Origin: Burkholderia sp. Bp8992
GTDB lineage: Bacteria; Pseudomonadota; Gammaproteobacteria; Burkholderiales; Burkholderiaceae
Direction: 5' to 3'
DNA: 47,248 bases
Assembly: GCF_003853705.1 (NCBI RefSeq)
Contig: NZ_QTQI01000043.1
Coordinates: forward strand, 1-47,248
The notes beneath the pieces were generated by a model. It was not told where the DNA came from and ran no database searches. It was given only the letters and a program-made list of their open reading frames with translations. The position numbers and the translations under genes are program-made. Position 1 is the first letter of the stretch; every line of letters begins with the position of its first letter. This document shows, one piece after another, positions 29,362-40,621 of the stretch.

Positions 29362-29852
29362 GGTGAATCTTCCTTGTCTGGTATGTCGTCGGGCAGCGCA
29401 ACCGTTGCGCGGCCCGAACCACTTCAGCAAGAACCGGACCATCGCCGTGCGAAGCTTGCCGCGCCGGCACCGGACGGCATGCCTCGCGTGCCGCATTCCT
29501 CATTTCGGTGCATGGGCCGGCACCGGCCGCGGCGGCTGCCCATTTGCAGCGCGCCCCGGCGCACCAAATTAACCATTCTGTTCACGCGCCGGCCTGCGAC
29601 CGGCTCGCCGGGCGGGATCGTGGCCGATCCCGTATGCACGGATTCGAACAGGCCCAGTCGAAATTTGCATGCCGTTTGTGATCGGAATAACGGCTGAATA
29701 CGTTCACGACGTACCGGACCTGCGCCGCGCCCGGCGACACGCGATCAGGCTGGCCAGGCTGGGTTCCGCGCCGCTGTTTCTCCGGTACCGGTGGTTCCGG
29801 TCGTCTCGCGACCGGAATGACTCCAATCACATTCGTGCACGAGGATGCAGCC
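29362..29852. other. Divergent intergenic region before the ABC operon and ansP
   Basis: These 491 bases carry no credible gene. An AT-richer patch near 29565-29585 and another at 29660-29700 may be promoters for the minus-strand ABC operon and for ansP. The stretch next to ansP holds a nine-base-pair perfect hairpin (29795-29817). Confidence 0.45.
29795..29817. promoter_or_regulatory. Perfect 9-bp inverted repeat upstream of ansP
   Basis: TTCCGGTCG (29795-29803) and CGACCGGAA (29809-29817) pair perfectly around a five-base loop TCTCG, 36-58 bases before the ansP start. It could be a DNA operator or a hairpin in the ansP leader. Confidence 0.4.
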
Positions 29853-31343
29853 ATGGCATCGATTCCCGAACCGTCGACAACCGGCGACACCGACAAACGC
29901 AACTGGCTCGAATCACACGAAGCCGGTTATCACAAGACCCTCGGCAATCGACAGGTGCAGATGATCGCGATCGGCGGGGCCATCGGCACGGGGCTGTTTC
30001 TCGGCGCCGGCGCCCGGCTGCAGGCGGCCGGGCCGGCGCTCGCGATCGTCTATCTGGTGTGCGGTGCGTTTTCGTTCCTGATCCTGCGCGCACTCGGCGA
30101 GCTCGTGATGCACCGCCCCAGCAGCGGCAGCTTCGTGTCGTACGCGCGCGAATTCCTCGGCGAGAAGGCGTCGTTCGTCGCAGGCTGGATGTACTTCCTG
30201 AACTGGGCGATGACCGGCATCGTCGACATCACCGCGGTCGCGCTCTACATGCATTACTGGGCGCCGTTCGCCGGCGTGCCGCAATGGATCTTCGCGCTCG
30301 TCGCGCTTTGCATCGTCGCGACGATGAACCTGATCGGCGTGAAGTGGTTCGCCGAAATGGAGTTCTGGTTCGCGCTGATCAAGGTTGCCGCGATCGTGCT
30401 GTTCCTCGCGATCGGTTCGCTGATCCTCGGCACGGGCATGCCGGTCGCCGGCCATGACACCGGGCTGCATCTGATCACCGACCACGGCGGCTTCTTTCCG
30501 CACGGGCTGATGCCGGCGCTGGTGCTCGTGCAAGGCGTGGTGTTCGCGTTCGCGGGCGTCGAGCTGGTCGGCACGGCCGCCGGCGAATGCAAGGATGCGC
30601 GCAAGGTGCTGCCGCGTGCGATCAACAACGTGATCTGGCGCATCGCGATCTTCTACGTCGCGTCGGTCGTCCTGCTCGTCTGCCTGCTGCCATGGAGCGC
30701 GTACAAGGCGGGCCAGAGCCCGTTCGTCACGTTCTTCGGGGCGCTCGGCGTGCCCGGCATCGGTTCGGTGATGAACCTGGTCGTGCTGACGGCCGCGCTG
30801 TCGAGCCTCAACTCCGGCCTGTATTCGACCGGGCGCGTGTTGCGTTCGCTGTCGATGGGCGGCTCGGCGCCGGCGTTCCTCGCCCGGATGAGCGCGCAAT
30901 CCGTGCCGTACGCCGGCATTCTCGTGACGGTCGCGATCTACGTGGTGGGCGTGCTGCTCAACTATCTCGTGCCGTCGAGCGTGTTCGAGATCGTGCTGAA
31001 CATCGCGTCGCTCGGCATCATCAGCACGTGGGGATTCATCGTCGTATGCCAGATGAAGTTCCGCGCCGCGGTCAGGCGCGGCGAGGTGGACGGCGTGTCG
31101 TTCAGGATGCCCGGCGCGCCCGTGACGTCGTGGCTGACGCTGATGTTCCTGCTCGGCGTGCTGGTCCTGATGGCGTTCGACTACCCGAACGGAACGTGGA
31201 CGATCGCATCGATTCCGCTGGTCGCCCTGCTGCTCGTGGCCGGCTGGAAGTGGCTGAGCAGCCGTGCGCGCCGCGCGTTGCTCAAGCCGACGATTCCGTC
31301 GGTCGCGCTGACGCAGAGCGTGCTCGAGAAGGGTGACGACTGA
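29853..31343 (+). CDS. ansP: L-asparagine permease (APC superfamily)
   Basis: The 496-residue protein is an amino acid:proton symporter of the APC family with about 12 membrane helices. Its opening GYHKTLGNRQVQMIAIGGAI and the GTGLFLGAGARLQ, HRPSSGSFVSYAREFLGEKA, MTGIVDITAVALYMHYW and VKWFAEMEFWFALIK segments match AnsP of E. coli closely, so asparagine uptake is the best call, although related permeases carry proline or GABA. ATG 29853 has GAGGA 9-13 bases upstream. A strong hairpin follows the stop directly. It is a single-gene unit between two transport operons. Confidence 0.88.
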   Translation: MASIPEPSTTGDTDKRNWLESHEAGYHKTLGNRQVQMIAIGGAIGTGLFLGAGARLQAAGPALAIVYLVCGAFSFLILRALGELVMHRPSSGSFVSYAREFLGEKASFVAGWMYFLNWAMTGIVDITAVALYMHYWAPFAGVPQWIFALVALCIVATMNLIGVKWFAEMEFWFALIKVAAIVLFLAIGSLILGTGMPVAGHDTGLHLITDHGGFFPHGLMPALVLVQGVVFAFAGVELVGTAAGECKDARKVLPRAINNVIWRIAIFYVASVVLLVCLLPWSAYKAGQSPFVTFFGALGVPGIGSVMNLVVLTAALSSLNSGLYSTGRVLRSLSMGGSAPAFLARMSAQSVPYAGILVTVAIYVVGVLLNYLVPSSVFEIVLNIASLGIISTWGFIVVCQMKFRAAVRRGEVDGVSFRMPGAPVTSWLTLMFLLGVLVLMAFDYPNGTWTIASIPLVALLLVAGWKWLSSRARRALLKPTIPSVALTQSVLEKGDD

Positions 31344-31426: not shown

Positions 31427-32182
31427 CTACACTTTCCCCGCCAGATGAAACCGCGACGCCGGATGCCACAGCGTGACCGACGTGGCAACCTGCTCGCCGA
31501 CCCAGGTGCGGCGCCTCAACAGCAGGCACGGCTCGCCGATTTCCATCACGAGATGCCGGCGCACCTGCGCATTGGGCTTCTCCGCGTAGATCCTGAACTC
31601 GGCACGCTGAATCGGCGCCAGGCGCACCATGTAATGATTCGGCGTCTCGATCGAGAAGTCCTGCTCCAGATACGCAGGAAACAACGCTGGATTGACGTAG
31701 CGATCCTCGAACTGGATCGGTTCGTCTTCCTCATAGTGCACGATGCGTGAATGAAACACGGGCCCGGAACGCAGTCCGAGCGCATCGATCGCTTCCGGAT
31801 CGACGCTGCGCTCGATCTGCAGGACCCGCGCACGGTGCCGATGACCGCGCTCGGCAATCTCGTCCGCGATGTTGCGGATCTCCAGCACCGTCGATTCGTA
31901 ATGCCGGCGCTCGACGAACGTGCCGGCTCCCTGGATGCGGGTCAGCACGCGTTCGGCCGTCAGTTCGCGCAGCGCGCGCGATACCGTCATCCTGGCCACG
32001 CCGAACTCCTTGACCAGTTCGGCCTCGGTCGGAATCGCGCCGCCGGGCTTCCAGTCGCCCTTCGCGATCCGTTCGACGACGTAGCGCTTGATCTGCTGAT
32101 AGGCCGGCAGTGCGCGCGCCGGCACGGCGTCGCCCGATGCCCGCGCCGCCCATGCGGAAGGTTCGCGTTCCGTTTCGTTCAT
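31427..32182 (-). CDS. HutC-type GntR-family transcriptional regulator
   Basis: The 251-residue regulator has a GntR winged HTH (about residues 25-92: LPAYQQIKRYVVERIAKGDW, then AELVKEFGVARMTVSRALREL) and a UTRA ligand domain (about 112-248), the HutC layout. ATG 32182 has GAGG upstream. It is the last gene of the operon that carries the HAL-like gene and the basic-amino-acid ABC transporter, 49 bases after the HAL-like gene. Classic HutC represses histidine-utilisation genes and is relieved by urocanate; here the effector may differ, since the enzyme next door is unusual. The TTGTCTATACAA site at 37048 is its likely operator. Confidence 0.88.
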   Translation of the reverse strand: MNETEREPSAWAARASGDAVPARALPAYQQIKRYVVERIAKGDWKPGGAIPTEAELVKEFGVARMTVSRALRELTAERVLTRIQGAGTFVERRHYESTVLEIRNIADEIAERGHRHRARVLQIERSVDPEAIDALGLRSGPVFHSRIVHYEEDEPIQFEDRYVNPALFPAYLEQDFSIETPNHYMVRLAPIQRAEFRIYAEKPNAQVRRHLVMEIGEPCLLLRRRTWVGEQVATSVTLWHPASRFHLAGKV

Positions 32183-32231: not shown

Positions 32232-33725
32232 TCACTGCAACGAAGGCGGCACACCCGCGACGATCGCGGCCGCGATCGCGATGTCGTCCGCCAGCGGCCG
32301 GTCGTCGCGATACGCCGGCACGCGTTCGCGCACGTGGCGCCACAACGCATCGGTAGACGCGGCGCGCCCGGTTTCGTCCCGCTGCAGATCGTACGCCTGC
32401 GCAGCGGCCAACAGCTCGATCGCGAGCACGCGCGTCGTATTCTCGATGATGTCGAGCGCCTTCAGCGCCGCCGGTGTCGCATGACACAGGTGATCCTCCT
32501 GCAGCCCCGACGTGATGCCGCCGTCGAGGCTCGCCGGCGCCGCGAGCCGCTGGTTCTGCGCGACCAGCGCGACCGCCGTGTATTGCGCGATCATGAAACC
32601 CGAGCAGCTTCCGCCCGGCGTCGCGAGAAACGCCGGCAGCCCGCTGACGAGCGGATTCACGAGCCGGTCGAGACGCCGCTCGGCGATCGCCGCGACCTGC
32701 GCCATCGCGGCCGCGAGGCTGTCCATCGCGAGCGCGATGCCCGCACCGACCGCATGCGCCTGCGAATGCACGGCCGGCGCCTCGCGCGTGCCGGCAACGA
32801 TCGGATTGTCGGTGACGGACGCGAGTTCGCGATCGACCACCTCGGCCGTGACGTCGAACACATCGCGCGCCGCGCCGTGCACGTGCGGAATCGTGCGCAG
32901 GCTGAGCGGATCCTGCGTATGCCGGCCGCTCGCCGCAGCCAGCATGCCGCTGTCCGCCAGCATCGCACGCAAACGGCCACCGACCTGCCCGATGCCGGGC
33001 GAAATCCGCAGCGCAAGCGAGGCCGGGTCGAATGCGGCAAGTTGTCCGCCGAGGTTCTCGAAGCTCATCGCCGCGATCCAGTCGGCCCAGTCGAGCAAAC
33101 GTTCCGCACGGGCAAGCGCGAGCGCGGCCAGCCCCGTGACGCATGGGGTGCCGTTGACGAGGCTCAGCCCCTCCTTCGCGCCGAGTACGAGCGGTTCGCG
33201 GCCGATACGGCGCAGCGCCTCGTCGCCGCGCATGCGCTCGCCGCGATAGCGCGCATGACCGTGGCCGATGCAGACGAGCGCGACGTGCGCCATGTGGGTC
33301 AGGTAGCCGACCGAGCCGTGCGCCGGCACTTCGGGCAGGCAATCGTGCTCGAGCAGTGCGACGAGCTGCTCGACGACGTCGACGCGCACGCCCGAATAGC
33401 CATGCGCGTAGTTGTTGATCGCCGCCGCCATGATCGCGCGCGTTTCCGCCGCGCCGAGCGGCACGCCGACGCCCACCGCGTGGCTCATCAGGATGTTGCG
33501 CGAGAGTTCGCTCTGCTGAGCGGGCGACACGATCACGTTGCACAGCGCACCGACGCCCGTATTGACGCCGTATGCGCGAATGCCGCGCGCCACGAGCGCG
33601 TCGACGAGCTCGCGTGCCGCGACGACGCGTTCGCGCGCGTCGCCGGTCAAGCCGAGCGGATCGCCGGCCGCCACGGCCGCGACCTGCCGCCATTCGAGCG
33701 GCGTGGTGGAACGAAACACGGTCAT
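32232..33725 (-). CDS. Histidine/aromatic ammonia-lyase homologue lacking the MIO triad
   Basis: The 497-residue protein is clearly of the HAL/PAL family: YGVNTGVGALCN (Tyr52), GLSLVNGTP (Asn191), QDPLSLR (Gln271, Arg277), TDNPIV (305-310) and QEDH (409-412) stand where HAL has its active-site loops. However, where family members read GSVG-ASG-DLAPLAH, this protein reads GSVGYLTHMAH (137-147): the Ala-Ser-Gly that cyclises to the MIO electrophile is gone. The usual Tyr280 is Leu274 and the usual Phe329 appears as Val. Ordinary MIO-based deamination is therefore not expected. It starts at ATG 33725, seven bases after the ABC ATPase, in a basic-amino-acid uptake operon with a HutC-type regulator. 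Possible roles are a new reaction on an imported amino acid, ligand sensing, or a dead copy. Confidence 0.85.
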   Translation of the reverse strand: MTVFRSTTPLEWRQVAAVAAGDPLGLTGDARERVVAARELVDALVARGIRAYGVNTGVGALCNVIVSPAQQSELSRNILMSHAVGVGVPLGAAETRAIMAAAINNYAHGYSGVRVDVVEQLVALLEHDCLPEVPAHGSVGYLTHMAHVALVCIGHGHARYRGERMRGDEALRRIGREPLVLGAKEGLSLVNGTPCVTGLAALALARAERLLDWADWIAAMSFENLGGQLAAFDPASLALRISPGIGQVGGRLRAMLADSGMLAAASGRHTQDPLSLRTIPHVHGAARDVFDVTAEVVDRELASVTDNPIVAGTREAPAVHSQAHAVGAGIALAMDSLAAAMAQVAAIAERRLDRLVNPLVSGLPAFLATPGGSCSGFMIAQYTAVALVAQNQRLAAPASLDGGITSGLQEDHLCHATPAALKALDIIENTTRVLAIELLAAAQAYDLQRDETGRAASTDALWRHVRERVPAYRDDRPLADDIAIAAAIVAGVPPSLQ

Positions 33726-33732
33726 GGCAGCC

Positions 33733-34524
33733 TCAGTTCGCGGTGCGGTCGTGATGGCTCGACACGAACTGCCGGAAGCGTTCCGAGCACTGGCCGCCGA
33801 ACAGCGCATCGGGTGCGCCGTCCGCATCGACTTCGCCCTGATGCAGGAACATCACACGATTCGACACATGGCGCGCGAAGCCCATTTCATGCGTGACGAC
33901 CAGCATCGTGCGGCCCTCCTCCGCGAGCGAGCGCATCACGCGCAGCACTTCGCCGACCAGCTCGGGGTCGAGCGCCGACGTCGGTTCGTCGAACAGCATC
34001 ACCTTCGGATGCATCGCGAGCGCGCGGGCAATCGCGACGCGCTGCTGCTGGCCGCCCGACAGGTGCGCGGGATAGTAGCCGCGCTTGTCGGCAAGCCCGA
34101 CGCGCGCGAGCAGCGCCTCGGCTTCCTCCACCGCTTCCGCCCGGCTGCGCTTCTGCACCCGCAGCGGCCCTTCGACGAGGTTGTCGAGCACCGTCATGTG
34201 GGACCACAGGTTGAAGTTCTGGAACACCATCCCGAGCTGGGAGCGAATCCGGTCGACCTGGCGCCGGTCGCTCGGGTGCAGCTTGCCGTCGCGCGCGCGC
34301 TTCATCGCCAGTTCCTCGCCCGCGAGCGCGACGGAACCGTCGTCGGGCGTCTCGAGCAGGTTCAGGCAGCGCAGGAACGTGCTCTTGCCCGATCCGCTCG
34401 CGCCGAGGATCGAGATCACGTCGCCCTCGTGCGCGTCGAGCGAAATGCCCTTCAGCACATGATGATCGCCGAACGACTTGTGGATGTTCTTGACCGACAG
34501 TGCGACGGGAGCAGCGGTGTTCAT
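33733..34524 (-). CDS. Basic amino-acid ABC transporter ATP-binding protein (HisP type)
   Basis: The 263-residue ATPase has Walker A GASGSGKS, Q-loop VFQNFNLWSHMTVLDN, signature LSGGQQQRVAIARAL and Walker B VMLFDEPTSALDPELV. The insertion carrying ARDGKLHPSDRRQ and the FRQFVSS C-terminus are typical of HisP/OccP relatives that serve histidine, arginine or opine uptake. ATG 34524 starts 27 bases after the upstream permease. The HAL-like gene follows seven bases after its stop. Confidence 0.92.
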   Translation of the reverse strand: MNTAAPVALSVKNIHKSFGDHHVLKGISLDAHEGDVISILGASGSGKSTFLRCLNLLETPDDGSVALAGEELAMKRARDGKLHPSDRRQVDRIRSQLGMVFQNFNLWSHMTVLDNLVEGPLRVQKRSRAEAVEEAEALLARVGLADKRGYYPAHLSGGQQQRVAIARALAMHPKVMLFDEPTSALDPELVGEVLRVMRSLAEEGRTMLVVTHEMGFARHVSNRVMFLHQGEVDADGAPDALFGGQCSERFRQFVSSHHDRTAN

Positions 34525-34551: not shown

Positions 34552-35298
34552 TCAGGAAGCGACGCGGCGGGCATTGCGGGTCGCCGCGGCCGGCGCACCG
34601 GACGGCTTCGGCGCACGCAGGTGCCCCGAGAGCCGCCATTCGAGCGCGCCGAGCAGGCGCACGACGATGAAGTTCAGGCCCAGGTAGATGACGGCCGCGC
34701 AGACGAACACCTCGGTCGTCCGGTAGGTTTGCTGAATGATCTGCTGCGCGACGCCCGTGACCTCCCATACCGTGACGAGGCTCGCCAGCGCGGTCGACTT
34801 GACCAGCAGCACGGCTTCGGTCGAATACGCGGGCAGGCACTGGCGCAATGCGATCGGGCCGATCACGCGCCGCAGCAGCGCGAAACCCGACAAGCCGATC
34901 GAATAGCCGGCCTCGATCTGCCCGACCGGCACGGCCATCAGCCCGCCGCGCAGGATTTCGGCCGTATAGCCGGCCGTGCACAGCGCGAGTGACAGCACCG
35001 CGCAGACGTACGGCTCGCGCAGCAGCGGCCACATGAAGCTCTCGCGAATCACGCCGAACTGGCCGAGCCCGTAATACACGAGGAACATCTGGATCAGCAG
35101 CGGCGAGCCGCGAAATACCAGGATGTAGGCGCGCGCAAAGCGGTTCGGCAGCCAGTTCGGCGACACGCGCATCGTGACGATCACGAGCGACAGCAGGCCG
35201 CCGAGCACGAGCGACGCGAAGAACAGGCCGAGCGTGGTCGGCACCGCCGCGAGCAGCTGGCGCAGCGTGTCGAGGAGAAAAGCGAAATCGATGGACAT
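34552..35298 (-). CDS. Basic amino-acid ABC transporter permease (HisM type)
   Basis: The 248-residue permease has the FRGSPLLIQMFLVYYGLGQFG motif near residue 65, characteristic of HisM/OccM/NocM permeases, and the EAA loop MAVPVGQIEAGYSIGLS. It ends in a basic, alanine-rich tail that may be cytoplasmic. It starts 12 bases after the HisQ-type gene and forms the membrane heterodimer with it. Confidence 0.9.
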   Translation of the reverse strand: MSIDFAFLLDTLRQLLAAVPTTLGLFFASLVLGGLLSLVIVTMRVSPNWLPNRFARAYILVFRGSPLLIQMFLVYYGLGQFGVIRESFMWPLLREPYVCAVLSLALCTAGYTAEILRGGLMAVPVGQIEAGYSIGLSGFALLRRVIGPIALRQCLPAYSTEAVLLVKSTALASLVTVWEVTGVAQQIIQQTYRTTEVFVCAAVIYLGLNFIVVRLLGALEWRLSGHLRAPKPSGAPAAATRNARRVAS

Positions 35299-35310: not shown

Positions 35311-36033
35311 TCAGTTGCGCGCGAAATTACGGCGGAACGACCGGCCGACGATCGCTTCCGCCCGGTTGAACACGCGGTTCGACAAGCCCGTCATCAGCAG
35401 GTACAGCGCCCCGCCTGCGACGAAGAACACGAAATACTGGTGCGTCGAGTTCGCGGCGATCTGGCTCGTGCGCAGCAGCTCGGCGAGCCCGGTGACCGAG
35501 ATCAGTGCCGAGTCCTTGAGGCTCAGTTGCCACACGTTGCCGATACCGGGCAGCGCGAAACGCAGCACCTGCGGCACCAGGATGCGCCGCAGCACCATGC
35601 TGCGCGGCATGCCGATCGAGCGCGCCGCCTCGAGCTCGCCCTTCGATACCGCGAGCACCGCCGCGCGATACACCTCCGCCTGGTAGGCGCCCGAGATCAT
35701 TCCGACCGCGAGCGCACCGATCACGAACGGCGGCACGCCGATGAAACCTTCCGCGCCGAACCACTGGCCGACGGCCGTGACGAGCGTCGAGCCGCCGAAA
35801 TAGAACAGGTAGATGACGAGCAGTTCGGGCACGCCGCGAAACACGGTCGTATAGAGGTCGCCGAGCAGGCGCGCGCTGCGGTGGCGCGACAGCTTCGCGG
35901 CCGCGATCGCCGCGCCGATCACGGCGCCGACCGCGAGCGCCGCGAGCGTCAACGCGACCGTCATCAGTGCGGCGAGCAGCAGCACACCGCCCCAGCCTTC
36001 GGTTCCGAAGCCGAGCATTTCAAGAATCGCCAT
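35311..36033 (-). CDS. Basic amino-acid ABC transporter permease (HisQ type)
   Basis: The 240-residue permease shows YTTVFRGVPELLVIYLFYFG, the HisQ/OccQ signature, and the EAA loop LAVSKGELEAARSIGMPRS. Five or so hydrophobic segments are visible. It lies 93 bases after the binding-protein gene and 12 bases before the HisM-type gene in the same operon. Confidence 0.9.
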   Translation of the reverse strand: MAILEMLGFGTEGWGGVLLLAALMTVALTLAALAVGAVIGAAIAAAKLSRHRSARLLGDLYTTVFRGVPELLVIYLFYFGGSTLVTAVGQWFGAEGFIGVPPFVIGALAVGMISGAYQAEVYRAAVLAVSKGELEAARSIGMPRSMVLRRILVPQVLRFALPGIGNVWQLSLKDSALISVTGLAELLRTSQIAANSTHQYFVFFVAGGALYLLMTGLSNRVFNRAEAIVGRSFRRNFARN

Positions 36034-36126: not shown

Positions 36127-36987
36127 TTACGGCGTGACGTCGGTCTTGAACCACTTGTCGGCAAGCTTCTTCACGGTGCCGTCCGCGAGCGCCGCGCCGA
36201 TCGCCGTATCGAACTTCGTCTTCAGGTCGGCATCCTGCTTGCGGAACGCGAGCCCTTCGCCCGGCCCCCAGATCGGCCCGCCGAGCTTCGGCCCCGCGAG
36301 CACGATCGATGCGGTGTCCTTCTTCGCGTTGTTCGCCGCGTAGTACGTCACGTCGTCGAACGATGCATCGATGCGCCCGGCGACGAGGTCGAGGTCGCGT
36401 TCGGGCGACGTCTTGTACACGCGAATCGACGCGATGTCCTTGAAGCTGTCGTTGATGAATTTCGTGTAGACGGTGCCCGACTGGATGCCGATCGTCTTGC
36501 CCTTCAGTTGCTTGCGCAGGGCGTCGACGGTGGGTTTGTCTGCATTCGCGTCACCCGTCAGCTTGACGATCGGTGCGCCGGGCGCGGCCTTCGGCAGGAT
36601 CTTCGTATCGGTGACGGCGAACGTCGCCGGCGTTGCCGCATAGGGGCGCGAGAACAGCAGGATCTTTTCGCGATCCGGCGTGATGGAAATCGCATCCATC
36701 AGGATGTCGAACTTGCCGGCCTGCAGGCCCGGAATCATCCCGTCCCAGTCCTGCGCGACCATGTTGCACTGCACCTTGATCCGCTCGCACACATTCGCGA
36801 GCAGCTCCGGCTCGAAACCGCCCAGCTTGCCGCCCGGCAGCGTGAGGTTCCACGGCGCGTAGCCGCCTTCCAGCGCGACCGTCACCGTCTTCCATTCCTT
36901 GGCCTGCACGGGCGCCGCGAGCGTTGCCGCTGCAGTTGCGATGACGCCGATCGTCCTGACTGCCCACTTGATGCGCTTACCGTTCAC
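36127..36987 (-). CDS. Basic amino-acid ABC transporter substrate-binding protein (ArgT/HisJ type)
   Basis: The 286-residue SBP_bac_3 protein has a Sec signal (KRIKWAVRTIGVIATAAATL, cleavage near VQA-KE). The GGYAPWNLTLPGGKLGGFEP and ANVCERIKVQCNMV segments, with a cysteine pair as in ArgT/HisJ/OccT proteins, and WDGMIPGLQAGKFD support lysine/arginine/ornithine/histidine or opine binding. The start is GTG 36987, favoured over ATG 37017 by AAGGAG seven bases upstream. It is the first gene of the operon that ends in the HutC-type regulator; the ligand is probably the substrate or inducer of that system. Confidence 0.88.
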   Translation of the reverse strand: MNGKRIKWAVRTIGVIATAAATLAAPVQAKEWKTVTVALEGGYAPWNLTLPGGKLGGFEPELLANVCERIKVQCNMVAQDWDGMIPGLQAGKFDILMDAISITPDREKILLFSRPYAATPATFAVTDTKILPKAAPGAPIVKLTGDANADKPTVDALRKQLKGKTIGIQSGTVYTKFINDSFKDIASIRVYKTSPERDLDLVAGRIDASFDDVTYYAANNAKKDTASIVLAGPKLGGPIWGPGEGLAFRKQDADLKTKFDTAIGAALADGTVKKLADKWFKTDVTP

Positions 36988-37047
36988 GAGATTTCTCCTT
37001 GCGTTGAAGTTCGCCATCCCTTCGGTTCATCGAGCCGCCTCAGGAAT

Positions 37048-37059
37048 TTGTCTATACAA
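37048..37059. promoter_or_regulatory. Candidate HutC-type operator TTGTCTATACAA
   Basis: TTGT and ACAA arms flank CTAT, resembling the TTGTATATACAA-like operators of the HutC/GntR subfamily. The dyad is 61-72 bases before the ArgT-type gene start, where a repressor would cover the promoter. The regulator is probably the protein at 31427-32182. Confidence 0.5.
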
Positions 37060-37224: not shown

Positions 37225-37457
37225 GGATTCGATCACCAGCGCTGCGCGAGCCGGCGCGAGAAGCCCCGCATGCCGGACCGGCCTGCATGAAGACCGGCAC
37301 GCTGCGCGCCGCGAATCGATGGCGCCATGAACGGTGCTCATGCGGCGCATGAAAACTTATCGATTGTTGGCACCCCGGATCGACGCCGACAATCCGCTTC
37401 ATGTCCCCTCGCTTGCGGTACGGGCCACTCCCCCTCCCAATCGGCACATCACGATCC

Positions 37458-39152
37458 ATGAACCATCCCCTCGCCGTCTCCTGCATCGCCGAGGCCCGCG
37501 CGGCCACGGCGGCACCGTTCCCTGCCCGCCGCCGCACCTGCGGCGAAGCACTCGTCGACCTCCTCGAACGCCAGGGCGTCGAATGCGTGTTCGGCATTCC
37601 TGGCGTGCATACCGTCGAGCTCTATCGCGGCCTCGCCGCATCGTCGATCCGTCACGTGACGCCGCGCCACGAGCAGGGCGCCGGCTTCATGGCCGACGGC
37701 TACGCACGCGTCACGGGCCGGCCGGGGGTCTGCTTCATCATCACCGGGCCGGGCATGACCAATATCGCGACCGCGATGGCACAGGCCTACGCCGATTCGA
37801 TCCCGATGCTGGTGATCTCGAGCGTCAACGCACGACGCGAGCTCGGCAGCGGCGACGGCCGCCTGCACGAACTGCCGTCGCAGCGCGACGTGTTCGCGGG
37901 ACTCACCGCGTTCTCCCACACGCTGCTCGACGCGGCCGACCTGCCACAGGTCCTCGCGCGCGCCTTCGCAGTGTTCGAGAGCGCGCGGCCGCGGCCCGTG
38001 CACATCGAGATTCCGCTCGACGTGATCGTGATGCCGGCGCCCGCGCTGCCCGCCGCGCCGCTCGCGCTGCCCGCGCGCCCCGCGCCGGATGCGAACGCCC
38101 TCGCGGCGGCCGCCGACCTGCTCGCGCATGCGCGCCGGCCGCTGATCCTCGCCGGCGGCGGTGCGATCCACGCGGCGGCGGAACTGCGCGAGCTCGCCGA
38201 ACGCCTGCACGCGCCCGTCGCGCTGACGATCAACGCCAAGGGCCTGCTGCCGCCCGGCCACCCGTTGCTGATCGGCTCCACCCAGTCGCTGCCGGCCACC
38301 CGCGCGGCGATCCGCGATGCCGACGTGGTGCTCGCCGTCGGCACCGAGCTTGGCGAAACCGATTACGACGTCACGTTCGACGGCGGCTTCGCGATCGACG
38401 GCCGGCTGATCCGCATCGACATCGACGCGCAACAGCTGATGCGCAACGCCCGCGCGGAAATCGCCATCGCCGGCGATTCCCGGCTGGCGCTCGGCGCACT
38501 GTCGACCCGCCTGCACGAGCGGCCCGCGCCCACCCCCGAGACCGGCTGGGGGGCGCTGCGGGTGGCGGCCGTTCGCGCCGCGATCACTTCCGGCCACGAC
38601 GGCCCCGCGCACGCGCAGGCGCGGCTGATCGACACGATCGTCGCGGCGCTGCCCGGCGCGATCATCGCCGGCGATTCGACGAGCCCCGTCTACGTCGGCA
38701 ATTTCACGCACGATGCGCCGGCGCCACGCAGCTGGTTCAACTCGTCGACCGGTTACGGCACGCTCGGCTACGGGCTGCCCGCCGCGATCGGCGCAAAGCT
38801 CGCCGCGCCTGCCCGGCCGGTCGTCTGCCTGATCGGCGACGGCGGCCTGCAGTTCACGCTGCCGGAGCTCGCGAGCGCGGTCGAGGCGCGGCTATCGGTG
38901 ATCGTGATCGTCTGGAACAACCGCGGCTACGGCGAGATCCGCAAATACATGGTCGCGCGCGACATCACGCCGGTCGGCGTCGAGCCCTATACGCCCGATT
39001 TCCAGGCACTCGCACGCGGGTTCGGCTGCGCGGCGCACGCAGCCGCGACGCCCGATGCACTGGCCGAAGCGCTGCGCGAAGCGACAGCACGCACGATTCC
39101 GACCGTGATCGAAATCGACGAGGCAACCTGGTTCGGTCAGGTGCAACGATGA
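37458..39152 (+). CDS. aruI: ThDP-dependent decarboxylase, AruI-like (5-guanidino-2-oxopentanoate decarboxylase)
   Basis: The 564-residue protein belongs to the acetolactate synthase/benzoylformate decarboxylase superfamily. The activating Glu72 is in RHEQGAGFMADGYAR, and the ThDP-Mg motif runs from GDG (460-462) to NN (487-488). Overall it resembles the AruI type (GIPGVHTVELYRGL, then PRHEQGAGFMADGYAR), which decarboxylates 2-ketoarginine to 4-guanidinobutyraldehyde in the arginine transaminase pathway. The ALDH that overlaps its stop fits that next step. The start is ATG 37458; ATG 37401 is also open, and neither has a strong ribosome site. An ordinary acetolactate synthase is less likely without a small subunit gene. 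Confidence 0.75.
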   Translation: MNHPLAVSCIAEARAATAAPFPARRRTCGEALVDLLERQGVECVFGIPGVHTVELYRGLAASSIRHVTPRHEQGAGFMADGYARVTGRPGVCFIITGPGMTNIATAMAQAYADSIPMLVISSVNARRELGSGDGRLHELPSQRDVFAGLTAFSHTLLDAADLPQVLARAFAVFESARPRPVHIEIPLDVIVMPAPALPAAPLALPARPAPDANALAAAADLLAHARRPLILAGGGAIHAAAELRELAERLHAPVALTINAKGLLPPGHPLLIGSTQSLPATRAAIRDADVVLAVGTELGETDYDVTFDGGFAIDGRLIRIDIDAQQLMRNARAEIAIAGDSRLALGALSTRLHERPAPTPETGWGALRVAAVRAAITSGHDGPAHAQARLIDTIVAALPGAIIAGDSTSPVYVGNFTHDAPAPRSWFNSSTGYGTLGYGLPAAIGAKLAAPARPVVCLIGDGGLQFTLPELASAVEARLSVIVIVWNNRGYGEIRKYMVARDITPVGVEPYTPDFQALARGFGCAAHAAATPDALAEALREATARTIPTVIEIDEATWFGQVQR

Positions 39153-40621
39153 GCACGACGCCCGATTTCGCGTTCGATCCGCCGCTGCACACGCGCCACT
39201 TCATCGACGGGACGTGGCGCGCGAGCGTCGGCGGCGCGACGCTGCCCGTCGTCGATCCGTCGACGGAAGCGCACCTCGCCGACGTCAGCGCAGGCGGCAA
39301 GGCAGACGTCGAACACGCCGTGCAAGCCGCGGCGCGCGCGTTTCCCGGCTGGAAACGCACGACCGGCGCCGAACGCGCGGCCCTGCTCCGCGCGATCGCG
39401 CGCGGCGTCGACGCACGCCGCACGCGGCTCGCCACGCTGCAGTCGCTCAACAACGGCAAGCCGTTCGCCGAAGCCGAGATCGACGTCGCGGACGTGATCG
39501 CCACCCTCGACTACTACGCAGGCCTCGCGGACCGTCTCGACACGGACGGCGAAACCGAGGTATCGCTGCCCGGCAGCGACCATCGTGCGTGGATCCGGCG
39601 CGAACCGGCCGGCGTCGCCGCGCTGATCGTGCCGTGGAATTTCCCGATGGTGACCACCGCATGGAAGCTCGCGCCCGCGCTCGCGGCCGGTTGCACCGTC
39701 GTGCTGAAGCCGTCCGAGATCACGCCGCTGCCTGAGCTCGAACTCGCCGCGATCGCCGCCGAGGCGGGCGTGCCGCCCGGCGTGCTGAACGTCGTGACGG
39801 GCACCGGCCACGACGTCGGCGCCCGGCTGTGCGCGCATCCGCTCGTCGCGAAGGTGTCGTTTACCGGCAGCACGGCGGTCGGCGCACAGGTCATGAAGAC
39901 GGCCGCGGACACGATCAAGGGCGTCGGCCTCGAACTCGGCGGCAAGTCGTCGATCGTCGTGTTCGACGACGCCGACCTCGATCACGCGGTCGAACTGATC
40001 GCGGGCGGCGGCCTCTTCAACGCCGGGCAGATGTGTTCGGCGACCTCGCGCGTGCTCGTCGCCGCCCCGCTCGCCGACGAACTCGTCACGCGCCTCGCGC
40101 GGCGGATCGACGCGACCGTCGTCGGCCCGCCGTTCGCGCCCGGCGTACAGATGGGCCCGCTGACGAACCGCGCGCAATACGAACGCGTGAAGCGCCACAT
40201 CGCGCAAGGCCGGGCCGACGGTGCACGGCTCGTCGCGGGCGGCGACGTGCTCGACGGCCCCGGCTACTTCATCCGGCCCGCGCTGTTCGTCGACGTGCCG
40301 ACCGGCAGCCCGCTATGGTCTGAGGAAATCTTCGGCCCGGTGCTGTGCGTGCGCGCGTTCGACACCGAAGACGACGCGATCGCGGCCGCCAACGATACCG
40401 AGTACGGGCTCGTCGCCACCGTCGTCACGCGCGACACGGCCCGCGGCAAGCGAGTCGCCGACGCGCTCGAGGCAGGCGTCGTATGGATCAACACGCCGCA
40501 GCTGATCTATCCGCAAACCTCATGGGGCGGCTACAAGCGCAGCAGCATCGGACGCGAGCTCGGTCCGTTCGGGCTGGCCGCGTTCCAGGAGATCAAGCAG
40601 GTCATGATGCCGGCCCGCTGA
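39149..40621 (+). CDS. Aminoaldehyde/betaine-aldehyde-type dehydrogenase
   Basis: The 490-residue ALDH has Asn164 (VPWNFP), Glu262 (LELGGKS) and nucleophile Cys296 in GQMCSATSR, a motif shared with aminoaldehyde and betaine-aldehyde dehydrogenases. ATG 39149 overlaps the stop of the AruI-like gene by four bases (ATGA), so the two are coupled. It probably oxidises 4-guanidinobutyraldehyde or a similar aminoaldehyde to the acid. It is followed, 150 bases on, by a polyamine-type ABC operon. Confidence 0.88.
   Translation: MSTTPDFAFDPPLHTRHFIDGTWRASVGGATLPVVDPSTEAHLADVSAGGKADVEHAVQAAARAFPGWKRTTGAERAALLRAIARGVDARRTRLATLQSLNNGKPFAEAEIDVADVIATLDYYAGLADRLDTDGETEVSLPGSDHRAWIRREPAGVAALIVPWNFPMVTTAWKLAPALAAGCTVVLKPSEITPLPELELAAIAAEAGVPPGVLNVVTGTGHDVGARLCAHPLVAKVSFTGSTAVGAQVMKTAADTIKGVGLELGGKSSIVVFDDADLDHAVELIAGGGLFNAGQMCSATSRVLVAAPLADELVTRLARRIDATVVGPPFAPGVQMGPLTNRAQYERVKRHIAQGRADGARLVAGGDVLDGPGYFIRPALFVDVPTGSPLWSEEIFGPVLCVRAFDTEDDAIAAANDTEYGLVATVVTRDTARGKRVADALEAGVVWINTPQLIYPQTSWGGYKRSSIGRELGPFGLAAFQEIKQVMMPAR

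Follow-up and report, generated by a model that had tools for sequence, protein, structure and literature searches.

A HutH1-type relative of histidine ammonia-lyase that lacks the MIO triad: a candidate hercynine trimethylamine-lyase in a Burkholderia transporter operon

Histidine, phenylalanine and tyrosine ammonia-lyases (HAL, PAL and TAL) depend on MIO, the cofactor formed from their own Ala-Ser-Gly triad, and the HAL literature assigns the pocket residues of that enzyme to an imidazole, a carboxylate and an amine side of the substrate. A first-pass annotation of the DNA described here had taken the need for MIO as established for all these enzymes, which holds for HAL, PAL and TAL but not for the superfamily as a whole, since ergothionase, which Burkholderia is reported to have, works without MIO (PMC13405746). 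A second hutH-like gene has been described in Pseudomonas fluorescens SBW25, in which hutTu, hutXWV and hutH1 are inserted between hutU and hutH, with hutH1 reported as dispensable for growth on histidine and HutC of Pseudomonas reported to respond to urocanate (PMC8871633).

The window (the whole stretch of DNA analysed, 47,248 nucleotides of Burkholderia sp. Bp8992, contig NZ_QTQI01000043.1) carries a lyase gene whose frame is intact and full-length, as stated in the first-pass annotation, and which does lie in an operon, the genes for a solute-binding protein (SBP), two permeases, an ATPase, the lyase and a HutC-type repressor following one another in this order on the minus strand (Table 1). 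In near-full-length alignments, the lyase matches the HAL structure 7tqr with 301 bits, Pseudomonas putida HAL with 261 and the ergothionase 6s7j with 170. It belongs to the aromatic amino acid lyase superfamily (PF00221; ~465-508 bits for members of its Tyr family) and scores below the cut-off of the hutH equivalog TIGR01225 (454.3 versus 539.15 bits). Where HAL reads GSVG-ASGD-LAPLAH, the window lyase reads GSVG-Y-LTHMAH, with GSVG at residues 137-140 (positions 33317-33306) followed by Y141-LTHMAH, and alignment with HALs from the PDB and from the family puts a single Tyr in place of ASGD, a net loss of three residues that removes the MIO triad exactly as had been noticed from the sequence.

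Table 1. Features of the lyase operon, in coordinates of the window
Feature	Positions	Strand	Remarks
HutC-type repressor (GntR/UTRA)	31427..32182	minus	TIGR02018 282.5 bits, cut-off 220
MIO-free HAL-like lyase (HutH1-type)	32232..33725	minus	497 aa, without internal stops
Tyr382 codon	32580..32582	minus	HAL: Val; Treponema denticola ergothionase: Lys; family: Tyr 108/108
GSVGYLTHMAH, residues 137-147	33285..33317	minus	Tyr141 codon 33303-33305, in place of HAL Ala-Ser-Gly-Asp
ABC transporter ATPase, HisP-like	33733..34524	minus	
ABC transporter permease	34552..35298	minus	
ABC transporter permease	35311..36033	minus	
Solute-binding protein (SBP)	36127..37017	minus	closest solved relatives: nopaline/octopine-binding proteins
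Palindrome TTGTCTATACAA (TTGTATAGACAA on opposite strand)	37048..37059		putative HutC operator, 30 bases 5' of SBP start codon

The replacement is fixed among relatives of the window lyase. All 80 genome relatives kept, the best 80 of at least 499 relatives of all kinds, are full length and read GS[VA]GYL[ST]H, and GS[VA]GY[LI] is found in every one of 22 loci from an even draw across the phylum, in which 23 of 398 genomes and 14 of 212 genera have the family (the survey counts cover 22 of the 23 loci, G001 being left out, and at least two loci occur in both sets, L156 having the genes of L033 and L157 those of L058). With the same Tyr in 108/108 distinct family members and ASGD restored in none of them, a sequencing error and a pseudogene are ruled out, and with them the decay that the first-pass annotation had not found obvious. 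The HutH hallmark, the MIO-forming Ala-Ser-Gly triad, is likewise absent from all 108 members, and in all six annotated plasmid loci that we read the lyase is labelled hutH or histidine ammonia-lyase.

The distinct members (P0001 and 107 distinct sequences from 148 gene copies, with a minimum length of 440 aa) retain HAL residues Y53, H83, N195, Q277, R283 and E414 without exception (108/108 in the alignment), in agreement with the family loops listed earlier for the window protein (Tyr52, Asn191, Gln271, Arg277 and QEDH at 409-412). Equally invariant (108/108 each) are the Tyr at the MIO site, a Leu for HAL Y280, which had been read correctly, and a Tyr for the Val after 'MIAQ'. The position of HAL F329, by contrast, had been misread as Val: the alignment puts Ala325 of the window lyase there, where 94 of the 108 members have Ala and the other 14 have Pro. 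In 39 HAL rows, a group from which the MIO rows L090, L091, L092 and L103 were excluded as lyases of other types, these positions hold Ala-Ser-Gly-Asp, Tyr, Val and Phe. The clade has thus retained the imidazole and carboxylate side of the pocket and remade its alpha-amine side, which, with a canonical-scoring HAL in 26/26 lyase-bearing genomes, favours the different chemistry that the first-pass annotation had put forward; ligand sensing or a structural role, its other two suggestions, finds no support, the remaining catalytic residues being invariant. A structure model built from 30 family members (mean pLDDT 90) has the HAL fold, with P. putida HAL 1eb4 as its top match (TM 0.93), other HALs next and ergothionase at TM 0.90, although its loop 402-412, which contains Glu410, is of low confidence. 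The matching solved structures include HAL mutants at F329, Y280 and D145, so that positions changed in the lyase have already been targets of HAL study.

In a tree of 61 rows, from which near duplicates (82% identity or more to a retained row) had been removed, the Tyr family forms one group with support 100/100, and ergothionase 6s7j lies with other MIO-free rows beyond a well supported branch (100/99), in a part of the tree with long branches. On this phylogeny the lyase family derives from HAL and is distinct from ergothionase. The AU test did not reject a tree that unites every MIO-free row against those with MIO (p 0.431), and given the long branches of the ergothionase part, MIO may have been lost either once or separately in each group. 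Ergothionase-like genes were also encountered: one reading GSIGEADI, with a hydrophobic, signal-peptide-like N-terminus, is present in the nearest genome (G001; L102:1417-3033, minus strand, and L180), where it adjoins a diverged HutU homologue 50% identical to Rhizobium etli HutU, and L184 has a similar pair. HutU of the hut operon in the nearest genome is 72% identical to R. etli HutU, and the hutU products adjoining the lyase in L054-L058 and L060 are 71-72% identical to it. The ergothionase-like and HutU pair of L102/L180 is likely an ergothioneine degradation locus. A further variant without MIO, which reads GSVGYLIATSH and is HAL-like in its other motifs, is encoded in a Rhizobium rhizogenes genome (G024; L187:10983-12644, and L186), near an ergothionase-type lyase with GSIGAAD, hutC and a betaine-type ABC transporter, and L106 and L127 encode very diverged, MIO-free PF00221 proteins with GT[LV]GEGDL instead of the MIO loop.

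Genome context, tallied over ~20-kb stretches around the lyase in the best 80 and the 22 survey loci, ties the family to histidine utilisation. At least one of hutU, hutI, hutG and hutF lies near the lyase in 18/22 survey loci and in 16 of the best 80 (in 2 of 56 Burkholderia and Paraburkholderia loci), and hutC does so in 16/22 and 66/80, respectively; hutC is directly downstream on the same strand in 45/80. The gap, whose conservation had been proposed as a check, is present in 80/80 loci. An ATPase of the window type lies immediately upstream of the lyase in 65/80 loci of this set, which Burkholderia and Paraburkholderia dominate. In six Caballeronia-type loci (L054-L058 and L060) the order is sbp-permeases-ATPase-LYASE-hutU-hutD-hutI-hutF-hutG, and the lyase occupies the place of hutH, as it also does in Aureimonas (hutF-LYASE-hutI-hutG-hutU-hutD), for which the search covered this one plasmid and a hutH may lie elsewhere. 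The R. etli lyase adjoins a whole hut cluster that has its own canonical hutH, the lyase immediately precedes canonical hutH in several survey genomes of one family (f15), and L166 has the order hutU, cytosine/purine-type permease, OpuAC SBP, permease, ATPase, lyase, hutH. A canonical-scoring HAL (PF00221, at least 598 bits) is also encoded in all 26 lyase-bearing whole genomes scanned, and it lies in the same stretch as the lyase in 13/22 survey loci; in each of the eight genomes for which the loop was read, the best PF00221 match has GSVGASGD. We conclude that the lyase does not stand in for histidase. Hut enzymes are missing around the lyase in eight loci (L061, L062, L068, L069, L074, L080, L163 and L175), which also lack a transporter of either of the two types described below immediately upstream; they include both Pseudomonas-named loci of the best 80 (L069 and L074) and a contig of 5.5 kb (L068). 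On a Rhizobium daejeonense plasmid (L109), the lyase is flanked by a desaturase-like gene on one side and by cytochrome c/2Fe-2S/molybdopterin oxidase genes on the other, and L080 has weak matches to the solute-binding protein and the desaturase of that locus.

Other genes flank the operon in the window. On the plus strand, positions 37401-40621 encode a 5-guanidino-2-oxopentanoate decarboxylase-type TPP enzyme (875 bits, cut-off 500) and then an aldehyde dehydrogenase, a pathway of the arginine transaminase type divergent from the lyase operon, and an amino-acid permease gene (29817-31343, plus strand; 851 bits against an L-asparagine permease cut-off of 773) converges with hutC. Because close matches to the divergent aruI-type decarboxylase and aldehyde dehydrogenase genes occur in just 5/80 loci (L001, L006, L010, L011 and L012), we dropped a link to arginine; the amino-acid pathway of the operon, to which the first-pass annotation had alluded, is hut and not that of the adjoining arginine-type genes.

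Upstream of the SBP gene lies an operator-like palindrome. The pattern TTGTMTAKACAA has one match in the window and none in 100 shuffles, a test that serves as a guide only, the pattern having been taken from the window site; the comparison across loci is firmer. Of the 69 loci in which an SBP gene precedes the lyase, 53 have the core TGT[AC]TA[GT]ACA, likewise derived from the window site after it had been seen, close to the start of that gene, against 20 occurrences over the rest of the sequence (1.42 Mb). The canonical hutH frame of the nearest genome (L179) carries two copies at its 5' end, and L108, L158 and L159 are without the core. HutC may control the lyase operon at this palindrome, although in Pseudomonas aeruginosa HutC is reported to recognise another sequence, and this solely ahead of hutIG (PMC12772324).

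The transporters encoded next to the lyase are of two types. The partner SBP and ATPase are of the glycine-betaine type in 10/22 survey loci and 3/80 best-80 loci (L177, with betaine-type permease matches only, is outside the ten), as is the partner transporter of Sinorhizobium, and Pfam reads an OpuAC domain in the partner SBPs of L108 and L166. Of 16 SBP rows, 14 are partner SBPs and the other two are paralogues from genes further upstream, and some come from near-identical genomes; all 16 retain three tryptophans that align with those of ProX, which form its quaternary-ammonium cage. In Burkholderia and others the partner SBP is of the SBP_bac_3 type: that of the window matches nopaline- and octopine-binding proteins with 208 and 204 bits and the histidine-binding HisJ with 98, and the ABC genes of R. 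etli CIAT 652 are annotated as octopine transport. In opines the alpha-nitrogen of an amino acid carries a substituent, so that the betaine-type and opine-type transporters point the same way. In L071, L072, L076, L111 and L161, a gene for a SolA-like N-methyl-amino-acid oxidase comes after that of the lyase; among the neighbours as named there were no trimethylamine-utilisation genes.

The gene order of L166, whose lyase is MIO-free, matches the hutTu-hutXWV-hutH1 module of SBW25, and for this reason the window gene is very probably the orthologue of SBW25 HutH1, in a clade that very probably includes Pseudomonas HutH1 and Sinorhizobium meliloti HutH2. Like HutH1, it is a second hutH beside a dedicated ABC transporter and a HutC-type gene, its control with hut being putative. 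Mutants in S. meliloti hutH2 reportedly grow about 30% more poorly on histidine, and PA5093 of P. aeruginosa would, by the PAO1 annotation, also be a HutH1-type gene, the second one resembling hutH. A PA5093 mutant, in which the gene is called hutG, is reported to be impaired in growth on histidine and urocanate (PMC12772324). The 'hutG' mutant of that paper may concern a MIO-free lyase.

The retained HAL contacts, the lost electrophile, the hut context and the betaine- and opine-type transporters together make the conversion of an alpha-N-substituted histidine to urocanate the best reading. We put at about an even chance that the lyase acts on an alpha-N-quaternised histidine, most likely hercynine (N-alpha-trimethylhistidine, or histidine betaine), with urocanate and trimethylamine as products; hercynine is favoured because it is the simplest such compound, has been reported from several organisms and contains a trimethylamine that leaves readily. 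It is described in a mushroom, in mycobacteria, in latex and in nine of ten cyanobacterial strains tested (PMC9103826, PMC3826126), and neither a hercynine lyase nor HutH1 as a MIO-free protein appears in the titles and abstract openings of the openly licensed PubMed Central papers listed. The ABC transporter would import a hercynine-type compound, from which the lyase would produce urocanate for the ordinary HutU-HutI-HutF-HutG route, and urocanate would relieve repression by HutC. In the pocket, Glu410, His82, Arg277, Asn191 and Gln271 would grip the imidazole and carboxylate as in HAL, Tyr52 would abstract the beta proton, and Tyr141, Tyr382, Leu274 and Ala325 would form a pocket for the trimethylammonium group. 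Trimethylamine, a far better leaving group than ammonia, could then leave without a MIO adduct, and MIO would be dispensable because a quaternary nitrogen cannot form one.

Several observations count against hercynine: the eight loci without hut or transporter context, a hut enzyme in only 2/56 Burkholderia and Paraburkholderia loci, the absence of any named trimethylamine gene, the growth defects told of hutH2 and PA5093 mutants, the operator core missing from L108, L158 and L159, and the low confidence of the Glu410 loop in the model. The different HutC sequence reported in P. aeruginosa (PMC12772324) is a further one.

The main rival to hercynine is an opine-type or less methylated histidine, such as histopine (N-carboxyethyl-histidine) or N-alpha-mono- or dimethylhistidine, that would be cleaved to urocanate and the corresponding amine; we regard it as possible but rather doubtful. 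The opine-type SBP of Burkholderia could mean that an N-carboxyalkyl histidine is the substrate instead, and the nopaline/octopine-binding type of the window SBP, the octopine annotation in R. etli CIAT 652 and the SolA-like oxidases after the lyase in five loci all agree with such a compound, whereas the glycine-betaine-type partners with conserved tryptophans in 10/22 survey loci and Sinorhizobium do not, and by general chemistry secondary and tertiary amines are worse leaving groups than the trimethylamine of a quaternary nitrogen. A histidase independent of MIO, that is, a backup HutH that deaminates L-histidine by another mechanism, would fit the HAL pocket residues and hut operon position that were kept, the operator-like site common to the lyase operons and the canonical hutH of the nearest genome, and the partial growth defect that hutH2 mutants are said to have. 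We nevertheless consider it unlikely, given that the residues surrounding the amine are all replaced and that a canonical-scoring HAL is present in 26/26 genomes, in the same stretch in 13/22 survey loci.

Plain ergothionase, a trimethylamine-lyase for ergothioneine or ergothioneine sulfonate, found no support as a candidate and seems very unlikely, even though ergothionase is a MIO-free member of the same superfamily known in Burkholderia (PMC13405746) and the GSVGYL-type variant of L187 adjoins an ergothionase-type gene: the window family lies in another clade, its deletion is of three residues rather than one, it has Tyr and not Lys at 382, and in the nearest genome an ergothionase-like gene of its own adjoins the 50% HutU homologue, while the hutU next to the lyase in L054-L058 and L060 is of the 71-72% kind. 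Loss of the hallmark cofactor would also be expected of an inactive homologue whose role would be to bind histidine or urocanate and to modulate HutH or transport, which we hold to be the least probable of these readings; the remaining catalytic residues and the two new tyrosines are invariant (108/108), and the lyase has its own transporter upstream in most loci.

If cleavage of hercynine is indeed what these proteins do, a clade that is widespread in Proteobacteria and at present carries the annotation 'histidine ammonia-lyase' would consist of hercynine trimethylamine-lyases, HALs that dropped MIO, an assignment that in our judgement stands evenly between acceptance and doubt. Histidine betaine of fungi, mycobacteria and cyanobacteria would then enter the classical hut pathway through these enzymes, which would define a catabolic route for this compound. 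The second hutH found in hut operons of Pseudomonas and rhizobia would have a function, the histidase annotation of many genes would be corrected, and a second MIO-free lyase type, besides ergothionase, would be added to a textbook family of enzymes with a self-made cofactor.

With HutH (P. putida 1b8f and its mutants, Thermoplasma acidophilum 7tqr), the lyase has in common the fold, ~36% identity, the imidazole and carboxylate residues and the hut context, but HutH has the MIO triad, whereas the lyase lacks it and replaces Y280, F329 and a Val near the amine. Ergothionase (T. denticola 6s7j) is likewise MIO-free and of the same superfamily and fold (TM 0.90), and the elimination of an amine without MIO, which it performs, is by analogy proposed for the lyase. 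The two are 27% identical and fall into separate groups in the tree; the ergothionase loop SSIGEGDI is that of HAL minus one residue, and the lyase loop that of HAL minus three; ergothionase has Lys at query position 382, against Tyr in 108/108 members of the lyase family, and S-C-N where HAL and the lyase family have N-G-T. The module of SBW25, finally, has the order seen between hutU and hutH in L166 and differs from the Burkholderia operon in its partner transporter, which is of the glycine-betaine type in SBW25 and of the opine/His type in Burkholderia.
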